Assembly: GCA_020061355.1 (NCBI GenBank)
Contig: JAGUYK010000017.1
Coordinates: forward strand, 1-59,514
Origin: Ignavibacteriales bacterium
GTDB lineage: Bacteria > Bacteroidota > Ignavibacteria > Ignavibacteriales > Melioribacteraceae
Reading direction: 5' to 3'
Length of the DNA: 59,514 nt
This document shows, piece by piece, positions 37,344 through 42,789 of the stretch. Below the pieces are notes generated by a model. It was not told the origin of the DNA and searched no databases. It saw only the letters and a program-made list of their open reading frames with translations. Both the position numbers and the translations under genes were made by a program. Positions within the stretch are counted from its first letter, which is position 1; each line of letters begins with the position of its first letter.

Positions 37344-39038
37344 TTATAAATTTTTAGGGAATTCATTTAATGCAACCAAAAGTTTATTCAAATCAAATAC
37401 CTGCTTTTCATTTGTAGCCCGTAATTTCACTTCAACCTTTCCTTCTTTCAGGTTCTTTTCACCTACTATTACCTGAACAGGCATTCCAAGAAGATCTGCA
37501 TCATTGAATTTAAATCCGGCACTTACATCATTTCTGTCATCGAATAAAACTTCAAATCCTTCTTTCAGCAAATCTTCATAAAGTTTGTTTGAAGTTTCAG
37601 CAACCGTTGCGTTTTTCATATTCAGTCCGATTAGGTGAATATCGTAAGGGGCAAGTGGTTGCTTCCAGATAATGCCTTTATCATCATAATTTTGTTCGAT
37701 GTAACATGCAAAAATTCTCTCTACTCCTATTCCGTAGCTTCCCATTACAATAGGATGCTCTTTACCGTTCTCGTCAAGATAATTTACGCCCAATGCTTCG
37801 GAATATTTAGTGCCGAGTTTAAATATGTGTCCGAGTTCAATCGCTTTGAAGACTTCAAGAGTTGAACCGCAGCGGATGCATGGTTCTCCGTTTTCAACAG
37901 TACGTAGGTCTGCATATTCAATATTAGGAACATCGCGCTTAAGGTCAATACCGTCGATATGGAAATTGTTCTTATTGGCGCCGCTGTAAATATTGTTAGC
38001 ATCTTTCAATAGGTTATCGGCAATTATTCTATCCTTAAATCCGATCGGTCCGATTGAGCCGGCATCTGCACCGGAGATTTCTTTTAACTCCTCAGGATGT
38101 GCAGGGCGAACATTCCCGCCAAGCAACGAACCAAGTTTAGACTCGTTCACTTCATCGTTGCCCAGCATTAGAACAAGAACCGGTTTTCCATCATGAATAT
38201 AAACACGCGATTTAGCTGTTTCATGTTCGTTAATTTTTAAGAACTCACATAATTCATCAATCGATTTTACATTGGGCGTGGATATTTCATAATACGATTT
38301 ACTCTCTAAATGCCTCGGTGCCGACTTAGCAACCGATTGAGCGACTTCAGCATTAGCAGCGTAACCGCACTTTTCACAATAAGCAATTGTATCTTCTCCG
38401 GCATCGCTCTTAACCATAAATTCTTCAGACTTACTTCCACCCATCGCACCGGAAGAAGCACCTACTACGAAATACTTCAATCCGCATCTATCGAAAATTT
38501 TTCTGTAAGCCATATCATGTTTTGCATAACCAACATCAAGTCCCTCGAAGTCTTTATCGAGTGTGTAGGCATCCTTCATTAAAAATTGTCTTCCGCGTAT
38601 AACCCCGCTTCTTGGTCTCGGTTCGTTTCTGAATTTTGTTTGTATCTGATACCAGATTTGCGGTAGATCTTTATATGAAGTAACTGCACCTTTAGCATGA
38701 AACGCTATAATTTCTTCGTGAGTGGGAGCTAACACATACTCCCGATTCTTTACATGAAAAAGAATATCTCCGAATGCTTCCACACGTCCTGTTGCGTCCC
38801 AGATCTCTTTAGGATTAAGTGCCGGCAGGTGAAATTCCTGACCGCCGATTGCATTCATCTCCTCGCGGATTATATCAGAAATCTTTCTTACAACTTTATA
38901 TCCGAGAGGCAGAAAGGAATAGATTCCGGCCGAGAGCATTCTTACCATTCCTGCGCGGATCATTAAAATATGACTCGGAATGACTGCATCCGAGGGGACT
39001 TCTTTAAGAGTAGGTAAAAAGTTCTTTGTAAATCGCAT
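37344..39038 (-). CDS. proS: Prolyl-tRNA synthetase, bacterial type
   Basis: A 564-residue class II synthetase with the insertion domain of bacterial ProRS. Motif 1 lies around SFLPLGYKVVRKISDIIREEM, motif 2 has TKFRNEPRPRSGVIRGRQFLMKDAY near residue 134, and motif 3 has MGSYGIGVERI near 434. The editing-type insertion (about 220-385) includes SRVYIHDGKPVLVLMLGNDEVNE. The C-terminal anticodon-binding domain begins about 465. Both the insertion and its length argue for the editing-proficient long form. Confidence 0.95.
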   Translation of the reverse strand: MRFTKNFLPTLKEVPSDAVIPSHILMIRAGMVRMLSAGIYSFLPLGYKVVRKISDIIREEMNAIGGQEFHLPALNPKEIWDATGRVEAFGDILFHVKNREYVLAPTHEEIIAFHAKGAVTSYKDLPQIWYQIQTKFRNEPRPRSGVIRGRQFLMKDAYTLDKDFEGLDVGYAKHDMAYRKIFDRCGLKYFVVGASSGAMGGSKSEEFMVKSDAGEDTIAYCEKCGYAANAEVAQSVAKSAPRHLESKSYYEISTPNVKSIDELCEFLKINEHETAKSRVYIHDGKPVLVLMLGNDEVNESKLGSLLGGNVRPAHPEELKEISGADAGSIGPIGFKDRIIADNLLKDANNIYSGANKNNFHIDGIDLKRDVPNIEYADLRTVENGEPCIRCGSTLEVFKAIELGHIFKLGTKYSEALGVNYLDENGKEHPIVMGSYGIGVERIFACYIEQNYDDKGIIWKQPLAPYDIHLIGLNMKNATVAETSNKLYEDLLKEGFEVLFDDRNDVSAGFKFNDADLLGMPVQVIVGEKNLKEGKVEVKLRATNEKQVFDLNKLLVALNEFPKNL

Positions 39039-39211
39039 ATATCACGGGGTTGTTGAAAAATAATGAGCAAAGATAAGAAATGATGTTTGCAATAGAAAAG
39101 AATTGTTCAAGCGGAAATGTACATTTAATGAATATTATTTTTTATTGTTGAAATTTTGAAGAATATTTTGCAGTTTGTAGTTGCAATTAACAAAATTTAA
39201 AGGGGGCTATC

Positions 39212-40436
39212 ATGAAAAGTTCATCATTTGTTGAATTGTCTTCTCACTCACTCACTCACTCACTCATATAGTTATTCTGTTACTGGTCATATCATTATTT
39301 AACAGTTGTCAAGAAGAACTGCTTCAGCCTAAGGAGGAAACTCATACAACGGAGTCAAAAGTTGTAACTGAAATGGTGCTTGGTGTAAAACCTGGAGATG
39401 ATAATCCAGATAAGAGAGCAAAATTTGAGAAGCTGAAAATTGAACATCAAAAACCATATATTCTTTTAAAAAGTCCGGAAGAAGTTTTAAGAGAGTATTT
39501 GGCCAATAGAAAACCGGGCAAGACAATAGGAAAATTAGATAAAAACGAAGATGCAAAATCAGTAATGAGTGGTTCTTGCTATCGAATTGAGACTGAAAAC
39601 TGGGCATTAATAAAATATACGCCATATTCAGGTTTGTTAGGTATTCTTCCCACAAGTGGTTGGCAATCAAATTTAAGTATTCTTGCAGATTTAAAAAATT
39701 ATGGATTTTCTAATATTATATTAGCTGAAATGGCTGCTAGAAATTGTATTAATATAATGGAGCTTTCAGCCGAGATCAGATCTACTTAGGTTTTGATTTC
39801 GAAGGGACTATTGAACAATGTATAACCACATGGGATAGAGGAATTGTAGCCGGTTGCTATATCGATGAGCCATCTGAAACATATCCATGTGCCCAAGCAA
39901 GGTATAGATTGCAAAATTCGATTATACCTTTGTGGAGAAATAAGTTTGGTTATTCCTCTAAAATTGTATTAGGAGACAGAACACATAGATTGGTTCACGA
40001 ATTTGATGATTTGGTTGATGTTGTGAATCAATCTTCTTACCGGGATTATAGTTATTTCTTTTTCGGAGTATATGATTTTATTTATACAGAGGCGGATCAG
40101 AGAGACGCATGGAACTCATTTAATAGTTCGTTTAGTAATAAATTTAATTGTCTTTGGATTAGTGCAAATTCAGATCAAGAGGAATTCAGCGACTTAATTG
40201 GGCATGCAAGAAATATAGGTAAAAATCAAGTGTGGTTATTTGACGGTGGGGATTGGAACACAATTGCTAATTTTTGCTATTATGCTTGGCAAAATCATTT
40301 TATATCGAGACACGAAAGAAAATATATCTATGTTTGGTCTTATGTTGGTTATGAAGATCCATGTTATGATTATCAAATAACTAGTTGGGAGTTAACTGAT
40401 ATTATTGAAACTAGTGAAACTAGAGTGCTCAATTAA
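39212..40436 (+). pseudogene. Broken lipoprotein gene with a CTCA tract in its signal-peptide region
   Basis: An ATG at 39212 with an AAGGGGG ribosome site opens a frame that stops at TAG 39269-39271, just after six CTCA units. The frame shifted by one then reads IVILLLVISLFNSC, an excellent signal peptide with lipobox, followed by a hydrophilic domain to 39789. One more CTCA (or two fewer) would join the ATG to it. A second break occurs near 39750-39780: the downstream frame continues YNGAFSRDQIYLGFDFEG and runs to 40436. The joined protein would have about 405 residues and contains VAGCYIDEPSE and WLFDGGDWNT, faintly like a TIM-barrel glycosidase. No family is firmly recognised. It may be a decayed contingency gene, or one or both breaks could be sequencing errors. 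Confidence 0.6.
39243..39266. repeat. Tetranucleotide microsatellite (CTCA)6
   Basis: Six exact, uninterrupted CTCA copies occupy 24 bases. They lie 31 bases after a start codon with a good ribosome site and directly before a lipoprotein signal-peptide frame. Three copies encode the four residues SLTH. Exact tetranucleotide tracts in such a place are the hallmark of slipped-strand phase variation. Confidence 0.9.
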
Positions 40437-40458: not shown

Positions 40459-41058
40459 ATGAAAAAACTCAAGTTTTCATTTTTGTTTTTTTGTTTTTTC
40501 CTTAGTCAGGAAATAGTTTCACAAAGTTTTCAAGGAAGCATCATTGTTGAGTCAGCAGCTTTGGTTATTAAAAAGCATCAGGAAAATTTTCTTTACATCG
40601 AAAACAATGGAATTATAACTTCAGAGTTTACTTCTGAAGATAAAAGATTAATTCTCTCCGGCTATGGTGTTTATTATAGTGCAAAGTGGAATGTTGGTAA
40701 GCAAATTCAATTAGAAATTCGCCCTGGTTACTTTTTTTCAGAAAAGATTTTTGAAGGATTACAAGTCGGTAGTTATTTGAGATATTTGTTTCCGAAAGGA
40801 TATTATGGAATATTGGGCTTTACTACCGAATTACATTCTGGTGGCGGTGGTAATTCTTATAATCCAACACAACACACATTTACAGCTGGATTATCAATAG
40901 GAAAAATGATAAACAACAAGTTCAGTGCTTTGCTAAGTGTAAATAAAACACTAACCGAATATGCTGGAAGTAATAGAACTAATTTCAGCAATCCCAATTG
41001 GGTGCTTTATCAATATTTATACTGGATTATTAAAATTGGAGTTGAATTAAATATTTGA
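40459..41058 (+). CDS. Secreted, probable outer-membrane beta-barrel hypothetical protein
   Basis: A 199-residue protein with a signal peptide (about 1-21, ending VSQS). The rest is alternating aromatic/polar strands: GYGVYYSAKWNVGKQIQLEIRPGYFF, SYLRYLFPKGYYGILGFTTEL, HTFTAGLSIGKMI. These look like an eight-stranded barrel, ending IKIGVELNI with a hydrophobic last residue as in outer-membrane barrels. The family is not recognised. It follows the broken lipoprotein gene by 22 bases and looks like a paralogue, in size and layout, of the next gene. Confidence 0.6.
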   Translation: MKKLKFSFLFFCFFLSQEIVSQSFQGSIIVESAALVIKKHQENFLYIENNGIITSEFTSEDKRLILSGYGVYYSAKWNVGKQIQLEIRPGYFFSEKIFEGLQVGSYLRYLFPKGYYGILGFTTELHSGGGGNSYNPTQHTFTAGLSIGKMINNKFSALLSVNKTLTEYAGSNRTNFSNPNWVLYQYLYWIIKIGVELNI

Positions 41059-41156: not shown

Positions 41157-41768
41157 ATGCTTGTTAGAAAATTAATAACGGTACTCAGTTTTATTTTGTT
41201 TAATAAATTACTTTTCTCGCAAACCTATTTAGGTCTTAGAATTGACCCACTTATCTACGCCGCAAGTGTTGAAAAAGTTAAGTATGGTCCGGAAGAAAGT
41301 GAAACAAATAGTCTTAAAGTAAAGGTTAGCATAATTCCAAAGATTTCTTTTACAACAAGTTTATCTGAGCGTTTAAAGCTAAATGCAAGAGCCGGGATTG
41401 TATTGGGAAGTATTTTTGAAACTGAAATATTTGACAGACTTTATCGCGGCATTGAAGGTTCGTTATTAATAAACTATAATTTTGATCCCAAACAATATTT
41501 AATATTCGGTATAAATGCTCATATTCAAGCGGAATTTGGTGGCAACACATATAGTGGAAATTCCGTGTTTGTACCACATGTGGTTTTAGGGCTTGGCGTT
41601 TTTACAAGTCAAAATTTTTCATTAGAATTTCAATTTAATTTACCTTTAAATAAAGAAGTCTATGGGATATCTAGAGAATTTGAGACAGTAACTTATTATT
41701 CGATCAGACATTTTTATCATGTTGCTGCAATGTTGAATATGAGTTTCGGATTTGATTGCGAACTCTAA
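41157..41768 (+). CDS. Secreted, probable outer-membrane beta-barrel hypothetical protein (second copy)
   Basis: A 203-residue protein with an N-terminal signal peptide (LITVLSFILFNKLLFSQT) and barrel-like strands: RLKLNARAGIVLGSIF, GSLLINYNFDPKQYLIFGINAHIQAEFGG, PHVVLGLGVFTSQNFSLEFQFNLPL. The order of strands and the Gly-Gly-Asn turn after a long strand (EFGGNTY here, SGGGGNSY in the previous gene) suggest divergence from a common ancestor. Function unknown. It lies 98 bases after its neighbour. Confidence 0.6.
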   Translation: MLVRKLITVLSFILFNKLLFSQTYLGLRIDPLIYAASVEKVKYGPEESETNSLKVKVSIIPKISFTTSLSERLKLNARAGIVLGSIFETEIFDRLYRGIEGSLLINYNFDPKQYLIFGINAHIQAEFGGNTYSGNSVFVPHVVLGLGVFTSQNFSLEFQFNLPLNKEVYGISREFETVTYYSIRHFYHVAAMLNMSFGFDCEL

Positions 41769-41908
41769 CTTTATTTTAATTATTTTTTTCTTATGAGGAG
41801 ACGTTTATACGACTCCTCATATCGTACTGCTATTAAAATTACTGAACTAGTCATTTTCTACTTATCTTTGCAATAATTAATTTATAAAAGAATTATTTTA
41901 TTAAAGAG

Positions 41909-42754
41909 ATGAAAATGATTGGTTTTAATCCCGCAACACAGGACGCGCCTAACGACCCCAAATTTCCAGCCTCGATGCAGCCACTTTCATTTACAAGTAA
42001 AGGATGTAGATTGCTCGGCACCTTTTTTCTTGCATCAGGAGAAGGACTTCATCCAACTGTTCTCCTGCTTCACGGTTTTCCGGGGAATGAAATTAATTAC
42101 GACATTGCCCATGCTGTGCGAAGAATGGGTTACAACGTAATGGTATTTCACTACCGCGGATGCTGGGGAAGTGAAGGCGATTATTTATGGACAAACCTTG
42201 TTGAAGATACCGATTCAGCTATTCAATTCTTGAAGAGCGGGGAAGCGGGGGAAAAATACAAAGTTGATAGGAATGAAATTGTTCTTATAGGTCACAGCAT
42301 GGGAGGATTTGCCGCTACATACAATTCAATTAAATATGATGACATAAACAATGTTGCATCGCTTGCCGGTTTCAATGCAGGGCTCTTTGGTGAATTTATT
42401 GAAGGGAATAATGAGTTGATTCAATTCAGTGCAGATACGATGCAGCCGGCAATGGAGTTTGTTAAGTGTGAGTCGGCGGTAACATTACTTAATGAAATGA
42501 TATCGAATAAAAAAGAGTGGAATCTGTTAAATCATCTCGATACTCTTTCGGGAAAAAACTGGCTGATTGTCAGTTCTAAGTATGATACGATTGCACCTCT
42601 GGAGATTCATCATAAACCGTTAGTTGGTGCATTGAAAATGTCCGGCGCAGCAAATTTTGAAGAACATATTTTAGAAACCGGTCACTCCTTCTCCGATAGC
42701 AGAATAAAGCTTACAAGAATTATTTGCGAATGGTTAAGTCAATTAAAATTTTAG
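41909..42754 (+). CDS. Alpha/beta hydrolase
   Basis: A 281-residue cytosolic hydrolase. LLLHGFPGNEINYD near residue 51 holds the oxyanion HGF motif, and LIGHSMGGFAA near 127 gives the nucleophile Ser. The final His is in LETGHSFSD near 262, with the acid probably in SSKYDTIAP. No signal peptide is present. The substrate cannot be inferred. Its stop lies only 11 bases before the likely decarboxylase start, so the two genes are probably co-transcribed. Confidence 0.85.
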   Translation: MKMIGFNPATQDAPNDPKFPASMQPLSFTSKGCRLLGTFFLASGEGLHPTVLLLHGFPGNEINYDIAHAVRRMGYNVMVFHYRGCWGSEGDYLWTNLVEDTDSAIQFLKSGEAGEKYKVDRNEIVLIGHSMGGFAATYNSIKYDDINNVASLAGFNAGLFGEFIEGNNELIQFSADTMQPAMEFVKCESAVTLLNEMISNKKEWNLLNHLDTLSGKNWLIVSSKYDTIAPLEIHHKPLVGALKMSGAANFEEHILETGHSFSDSRIKLTRIICEWLSQLKF

Positions 42755-42789
42755 AGAGCAAGAGTATGAGCAAGATCAAGAGCAAGATT
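42754..42789. repeat. Hexad repeat forming the start of the decarboxylase gene
   Basis: Six consecutive hexads read GAGAGC, AAGAGT, ATGAGC, AAGATC, AAGAGC, AAGATT. The third unit supplies the ATG and the rest encode the first codons (MSKIKSKI). The pattern matches those at 22168, 44225 and 55476. Confidence 0.7.

Follow-up and report, generated by a model that had tools for sequence, protein, structure and literature searches.

The locus considered here raises the question of why six exact copies of CTCA should separate a start codon from a lipoprotein signal peptide that lies in another reading frame, and whether such an arrangement represents a switch of the contingency type or a gene on its way to being lost. 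The DNA analysed, hereafter the window, is the whole stretch of 59,514 nucleotides from an Ignavibacteriales bacterium (contig JAGUYK010000017.1 of assembly GCA_020061355.1). The genome of this bacterium is labelled G000 in all comparisons, and the other G-numbers designate the genomes of relatives.

The CTCA tract and its reading frames

A preliminary description had placed at this locus a start codon with a Shine-Dalgarno sequence followed by (CTCA)6, a stop right behind the six copies, and a lipoprotein signal in a frame other than that of the ATG. Frame reading confirms all three, with the following features, all on the forward strand:

39200 to 39206 (+): Shine-Dalgarno-like AAGGGGG, read from the sequence
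39212 to 39271 (+): OFF product, a short ATG frame of 19 codons plus TAG, from frame reading
39243 to 39266 (+): (CTCA)6 tract, the proposed switch, from repeat search, frame reading and chance tests
39262 to 39789 (+): first part of the lipoprotein, in the other frame, with the signal peptide and the N-terminal half, closed by TAG 39787-39789
39759 to 40436 (+): continuation of the lipoprotein, third frame, behind a second frame break

The tract starts 31 bases past the A of the ATG at 39212, and is a perfect tandem repeat, read in frame near the start, whose unit is not a multiple of three. The frame of this ATG, MKSSSFVELSSHSLTHSLI, terminates at TAG 39269-39271, and the lipoprotein frame, counted from 39214, continues as ...THIVILLLVISLFNSC with no stop until 39786. 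The signal peptide IVILLLVISLFNSC contains a lipobox Cys, encoded at 39307-39309, and the product is a predicted lipoprotein as read from its sequence; in the alignment, homologs carry S-C or a similar pair at this position.

Such an arrangement would allow slipped-strand mispairing to add or remove CTCA units, each change shifting the start codon into or out of frame with the lipoprotein signal peptide. The two would share a frame only at copy numbers of one remainder modulo three, six being an OFF state. Translated in any of the three frames, the repeat gives T-H-S-L without a stop, and would therefore be tolerated before the hydrophobic core. The switched product would be a surface lipoprotein, encoded beside small secreted partners; its switching would presumably be reversible in the population, and its display at the surface may confer a benefit.

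It had also been proposed that seven or four copies would give a continuous lipoprotein. This stands up to 39786, but a second frame break at about 39787 had been missed: the lipoprotein frame closes there, and family homology continues in the third frame to 40436. Most wholly read homologs are one frame of about 340-430 codons. A change in repeat number alone would therefore give only about the first half of the predicted TIM-barrel lipoprotein.

Concerning the origin of the tract, chance is ruled out by a Markov simulation and by shuffling of the window. In 412,631 bases of G000 (the window plus sampled stretches, ~11% of the genome), (CTCA)6 is the only tetranucleotide run of at least four copies, and the search for further tracts at gene starts of this genome, suggested at the outset, accordingly yielded none of that length in these bases. 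Runs of at least three copies number 10, and a first-order Markov simulation leads one to expect 9.0 of these, 0.2 of at least four copies and 0.0 of at least six. The whole G000 genome contains a single tract of (CTCA)4 or more, that of the window. Within the window we found no other match to (CTCA)6 with up to three mismatches, save the tract's own register shift, and 100 dinucleotide shuffles of the window gave zero such matches. Of the ten runs of at least three copies, three (CTTT, TTGA and GCAA, of 3 copies each) lie within 1 kb on contig C19 of G000 (L121, 16950-17930). The window also has an imperfect 6-base repeat, AGAGCA in 5.5 copies, at 42755-42787, between the hydrolase gene described below and a decarboxylase gene.

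Copy numbers and frame states in related genes

Seven related lipoprotein genes, the window's included, carry a CTCA- or TTCA-type tract at the signal-peptide position, in 2, 3, 5, 6 or 8 copies:

G000 (CTCA)6; G014, of the same genus, (CTCA)8; G013 (CACT)3; G019 (TTCA)5
G068 (TTCA)8 and (TTCA)6, in tandem genes; G065 (TTCA)2

Homologs without a tract, for example a paralog on contig C19 of G000, have an ordinary signal peptide. In the stretch 26960-29658 of C19, this paralog is followed by partner-like genes and by a small lipoprotein remnant with a stop. On contig C103 of G022 (L035), an imperfect (TTCA/CTCA)4 lies in frame within a long open frame, where it reads FTHSLI.

Repeat number differs among close relatives in a manner that shifts the frame: G065 and G068 have 2, 6 and 8 copies behind near-identical leaders, a comparison between species. 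Of the two tandem genes of G068, that with 8 copies is in frame and that with 6 copies is out of frame. Only 15 of 1,128 body bases, and no indel, separate the latter from its 2-copy ortholog in G065 (98.7% identity; dN 0.0098 and dS 0.030 by NG86), and a difference of four repeat units despite so few changes in the body indicates that the tract changes faster than the rest.

Similar tracts occur at other genes of this bacterial family, with (YTCA)4 in 8 of 80 genomes and (CAAT)4 in 7 of 80. The tracts of G047, (CTCA)11, G044, (CAAT)4, and G002, (CAAT)9, lie behind a start codon in genes that end in a type IX sorting domain scoring above the cut-off, and a gene of G033 whose contig starts inside the tract ends in such a domain too. 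Among tracts of at least five copies, six of ten YTCA tracts in the family follow a start codon, and only two of eight CAAT tracts clearly do so when read by eye, one more, on contig C43 of G047, being ambiguous; other tracts in the family lie between or within genes. A general rule that such tracts mark gene starts is refuted by these two of eight CAAT tracts and by the other family of the order, where none of six tracts is at a gene start. The reversed-pattern control for CAAT gave zero matches in all 80 genomes. For YTCA this control is not independent, because CTCA read backwards is the same repeat; it gave one match each in G031 and G063, both without a forward match. In G033, three of the five CAAT tracts (C74, C224 and C433; L051, L052 and L054) lie within 20 bases of a contig end, for which a simple model gives a chance of about 2e-6, as if the assembler had broken there, which long tracts or tracts of mixed length would be expected to cause. 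G047 also has long degenerate intergenic arrays of CAAT- and CTCA-like units (L041, L059).

Ten genes, of several families, combine a start codon with a tract and a readable frame; contig C465 of G033 (two possible starts, body of 44 codons), G058 (no ATG before the tract) and the contig-end tracts of G033 were excluded. Three of the ten are in frame (the 8-copy gene of G068, the gene of G065, which is so only via its TTG start, and that of G002), and seven are out of frame (G000, G014, G019, the 6-copy gene of G068, G013, G047 and G044). The probability of three or fewer in frame at one in three is 0.56, so the frame states look random, as if the frame were free to move. Five of the seven out-of-frame genes have open bodies (G019, the 6-copy gene of G068, G013, G047 and G044).

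We weighed these data against the reading of a plain decaying pseudogene, in which the genome is losing the lipoprotein, the tract has arisen as a side effect, and ordinary decay explains the 5' breaks and those of the body alike. Decay or assembly error marks both copies of this genus at the locus: G000 has its second break, and the body of G014 contains two in-frame stops. G017 retains a truncated remnant, and lipoprotein-family members from beyond this bacterial family frequently have an out-of-frame 5' end with no tract, which counts against a switch. However, the bodies of the tract-bearing genes of G019, G068 and G013 are open, one of them in frame, and simple decay would have to account as well for four units of difference in copy number between genes with nearly identical bodies, and for the presence of tracts both at this position across several genera and where unrelated secreted genes begin. 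We consider this explanation unlikely. As for G000 itself, the gene is OFF and has a second break in the assembly, and this copy is thus either decaying while OFF or misassembled there.

An error of assembly or base calling, the gene being truly in frame and always made and either the repeat number or the second break being wrong, appears very improbable: repeats can be mis-assembled and G000 is in 47 contigs, but 24 bases are short for a read to span, and out-of-frame tracts recur across independent genomes. Still harder to credit is the production of the lipoprotein whatever the repeat number, by another start or by ribosomal frameshifting, since the downstream ATG in the lipoprotein frame, at 39373, omits signal peptide and lipobox, and the 90 bases upstream of the tract contain no ATG, GTG or TTG in the right frame and open to the tract in G000, G019, the 6-copy gene of G068, G047 or G044, although G014 does have two TTG codons in the lipoprotein frame 5' of its tract, with no clear Shine-Dalgarno, which make its OFF state less sure.

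A tetranucleotide switch of the contingency type is thus the best explanation, and probably the correct one. Support is good for these genes as a group; for the window copy, OFF and broken as assembled here, we infer the switch. The logic of contingency loci, invoked in the preliminary description, agrees with the relatives' tracts, copy numbers and frame states, but the window gene has no intact ON product; such a product is encoded by the 8-copy gene of G068.

The lipoprotein, its neighbours and a possible exchange of bodies

The lipoprotein gene lies in the following context:

37344 to 39038 (-): divergent flank, which we take, by recognition, to be a proS-like gene; 92% identity in G014 and 80% in G019
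39104 to 39211 (+): leader 5' of the start codon, common to G014 (89 of 108 bases identical) and missing in G015 and G016, which are of the same genus and have no lipoprotein
40459 to 41058 (+): signal-peptide protein of 199 residues, a likely partner, with homologs behind related lipoproteins
41157 to 41768 (+): signal-peptide protein of 203 residues, a second likely partner; 30% identity in G014, 25% in G019 and 24% in G028
41909 to 42754 (+): alpha/beta hydrolase (Pfam PF12697), downstream flank; 85% identity in G014

Homologs of the 199-residue protein have 36% identity in G068 and G065, and 31% and 26% on contig C19 of G000. A scan for promoters and terminators gave no excess over shuffles, promoters of the Bacteroidota type being outside its coverage.

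A search for proS gave matches, some of them weak, in 79 of 80 genomes, and we surveyed 43 stretches upstream of this gene. The lipoprotein is present at five of these loci (G000, G014, G019, G028 and G017), intact and with no tract in G028 and as a short remnant in G017; 23 have the hydrolase without the lipoprotein, and 15 have neither, including three stretches of less than 200 bases. G015 and G016 align with the window up to 39102/39103, and again from 41904/41928.

Elsewhere, the C-terminal part of the lipoprotein is matched in 26 of 80 genomes of the same bacterial family, G000 included (E 0.001), and the lipoprotein profile in 42 of 342 genomes of the class (E 1e-8). In members from outside the bacterial family, those of G096, G097 and G098 (L149, L150, L154, L158), the reading frame is lost or meets a stop close to the 5' end, and in G096 seven consecutive C come right after the lipobox.

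The lipoprotein and its two small partners gave only sub-cut-off matches to Pfam and NCBIfam families, where a cut-off was shown; a family scan of 21 lipoprotein members gave a best E-value of 0.0013 (DUF2208), and a profile search of solved structures two weak matches (E 0.0059 and 0.83). A model of the G019 homolog (mean pLDDT 72, from eight sequences) has an eight-stranded alpha/beta barrel over residues 73-320, and the lipoprotein is accordingly predicted to fold as a glycosidase-like TIM barrel. In enzymes of the GH-A clan, strand 4 ends in an acid/base Glu and strand 7 carries a nucleophile Glu. Strand 4 of the G019 model ends in DEP, which is found in 18 of the 20 aligned rows covering the position, and no matching Glu was noted at strand 7. 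A sugar-directed role at the surface may be envisaged.

Comparison of G000 with G014 suggests that bodies may be exchanged behind the tract. The two DNAs are 83.8% similar over 37405-39266, and similarity resumes at 41856, shortly ahead of the next conserved gene, with one 66-base patch at 41218-41283; where exactly it ends inside the tract is uninformative, given the repetitive sequence there. Upstream of the tract the leader agrees, as listed above, and so do 29 of 31 coding bases; downstream, the share of aligned bases that agree is 44.2%, shuffled sequence giving 44.4%. The bodies also fall into separate groups, each with 100% ultrafast bootstrap: the body of G000 (C-terminal half) joins G068 and G065, the G014 body joins G050 and G022, and the G019 body joins the C19 type. 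In G068, the tandem genes likewise have leader, tract and N-terminus in common, then diverge. The simplest reading of these alignments is that leader and tract were kept in G000 and G014 while a body of another subfamily was exchanged, very fast divergence being the alternative. We propose, tentatively and with some doubt, that leader and tetranucleotide tract act together as a transferable phase switch in front of interchangeable surface-protein bodies, so that these free-living anaerobes would both turn expression on and off and alter which protein is displayed.

Significance and comparison with known switches

Known repeat switches, those of the literature covered here included, come mostly from host-adapted bacteria. 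In the switching systems of mycoplasmas, lipoproteins are the switched product and the displayed protein changes. Reports on the present lineage were absent among the matches listed from the open-licence literature. If our reading is true, free-living Ignavibacteria switch surface lipoproteins and cargo of type IX secretion. Something other than immunity would then have to drive the switch, for instance phages, predators or neighbours, and these bacteria would offer a harmless system for asking why phase variation of surfaces evolves. If bodies are indeed exchanged while the leader is retained, this would tie on/off switching to surface diversification.

The likeness to mycoplasmas, drawn from description, lies in a lipoprotein as the switched product; unlike here, the mechanism that a review names for mycoplasmas, in the passages listed, is site-specific recombination (PMC11868660). 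Among these same passages, Bacteroides is named for inversion systems (PMC11868660). In Haemophilus influenzae, as excerpts describe them, tetranucleotide loci are mainly lipopolysaccharide, haemoglobin-binding and adhesin genes (PMC2651432), and the likeness extends to 4-base units at the 5' end of surface-related genes, with CAAT also at some gene starts in the present bacterial family. However, the tracts of H. influenzae are, in the same excerpts, longer as a rule (PMC2651432), and the six copies of the window are short beside most, which counts against a switch.

The closest precedent, in the part of the literature covered, is autB of Neisseria meningitidis, described in excerpt as having AAGC repeats within the DNA of its signal sequence, as mostly out of frame and as often further disrupted, with repeat numbers of 3-19 in Neisseria and variation demonstrated between isolates (PMC5118866). 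While autB has AAGC and encodes an autotransporter of a human-adapted bacterium, the window gene has CTCA and encodes a lipoprotein, and the differences known here are between species. Like autB, it carries a tetranucleotide repeat in the signal-sequence DNA of a putative surface protein, and it too is OFF and further disrupted.
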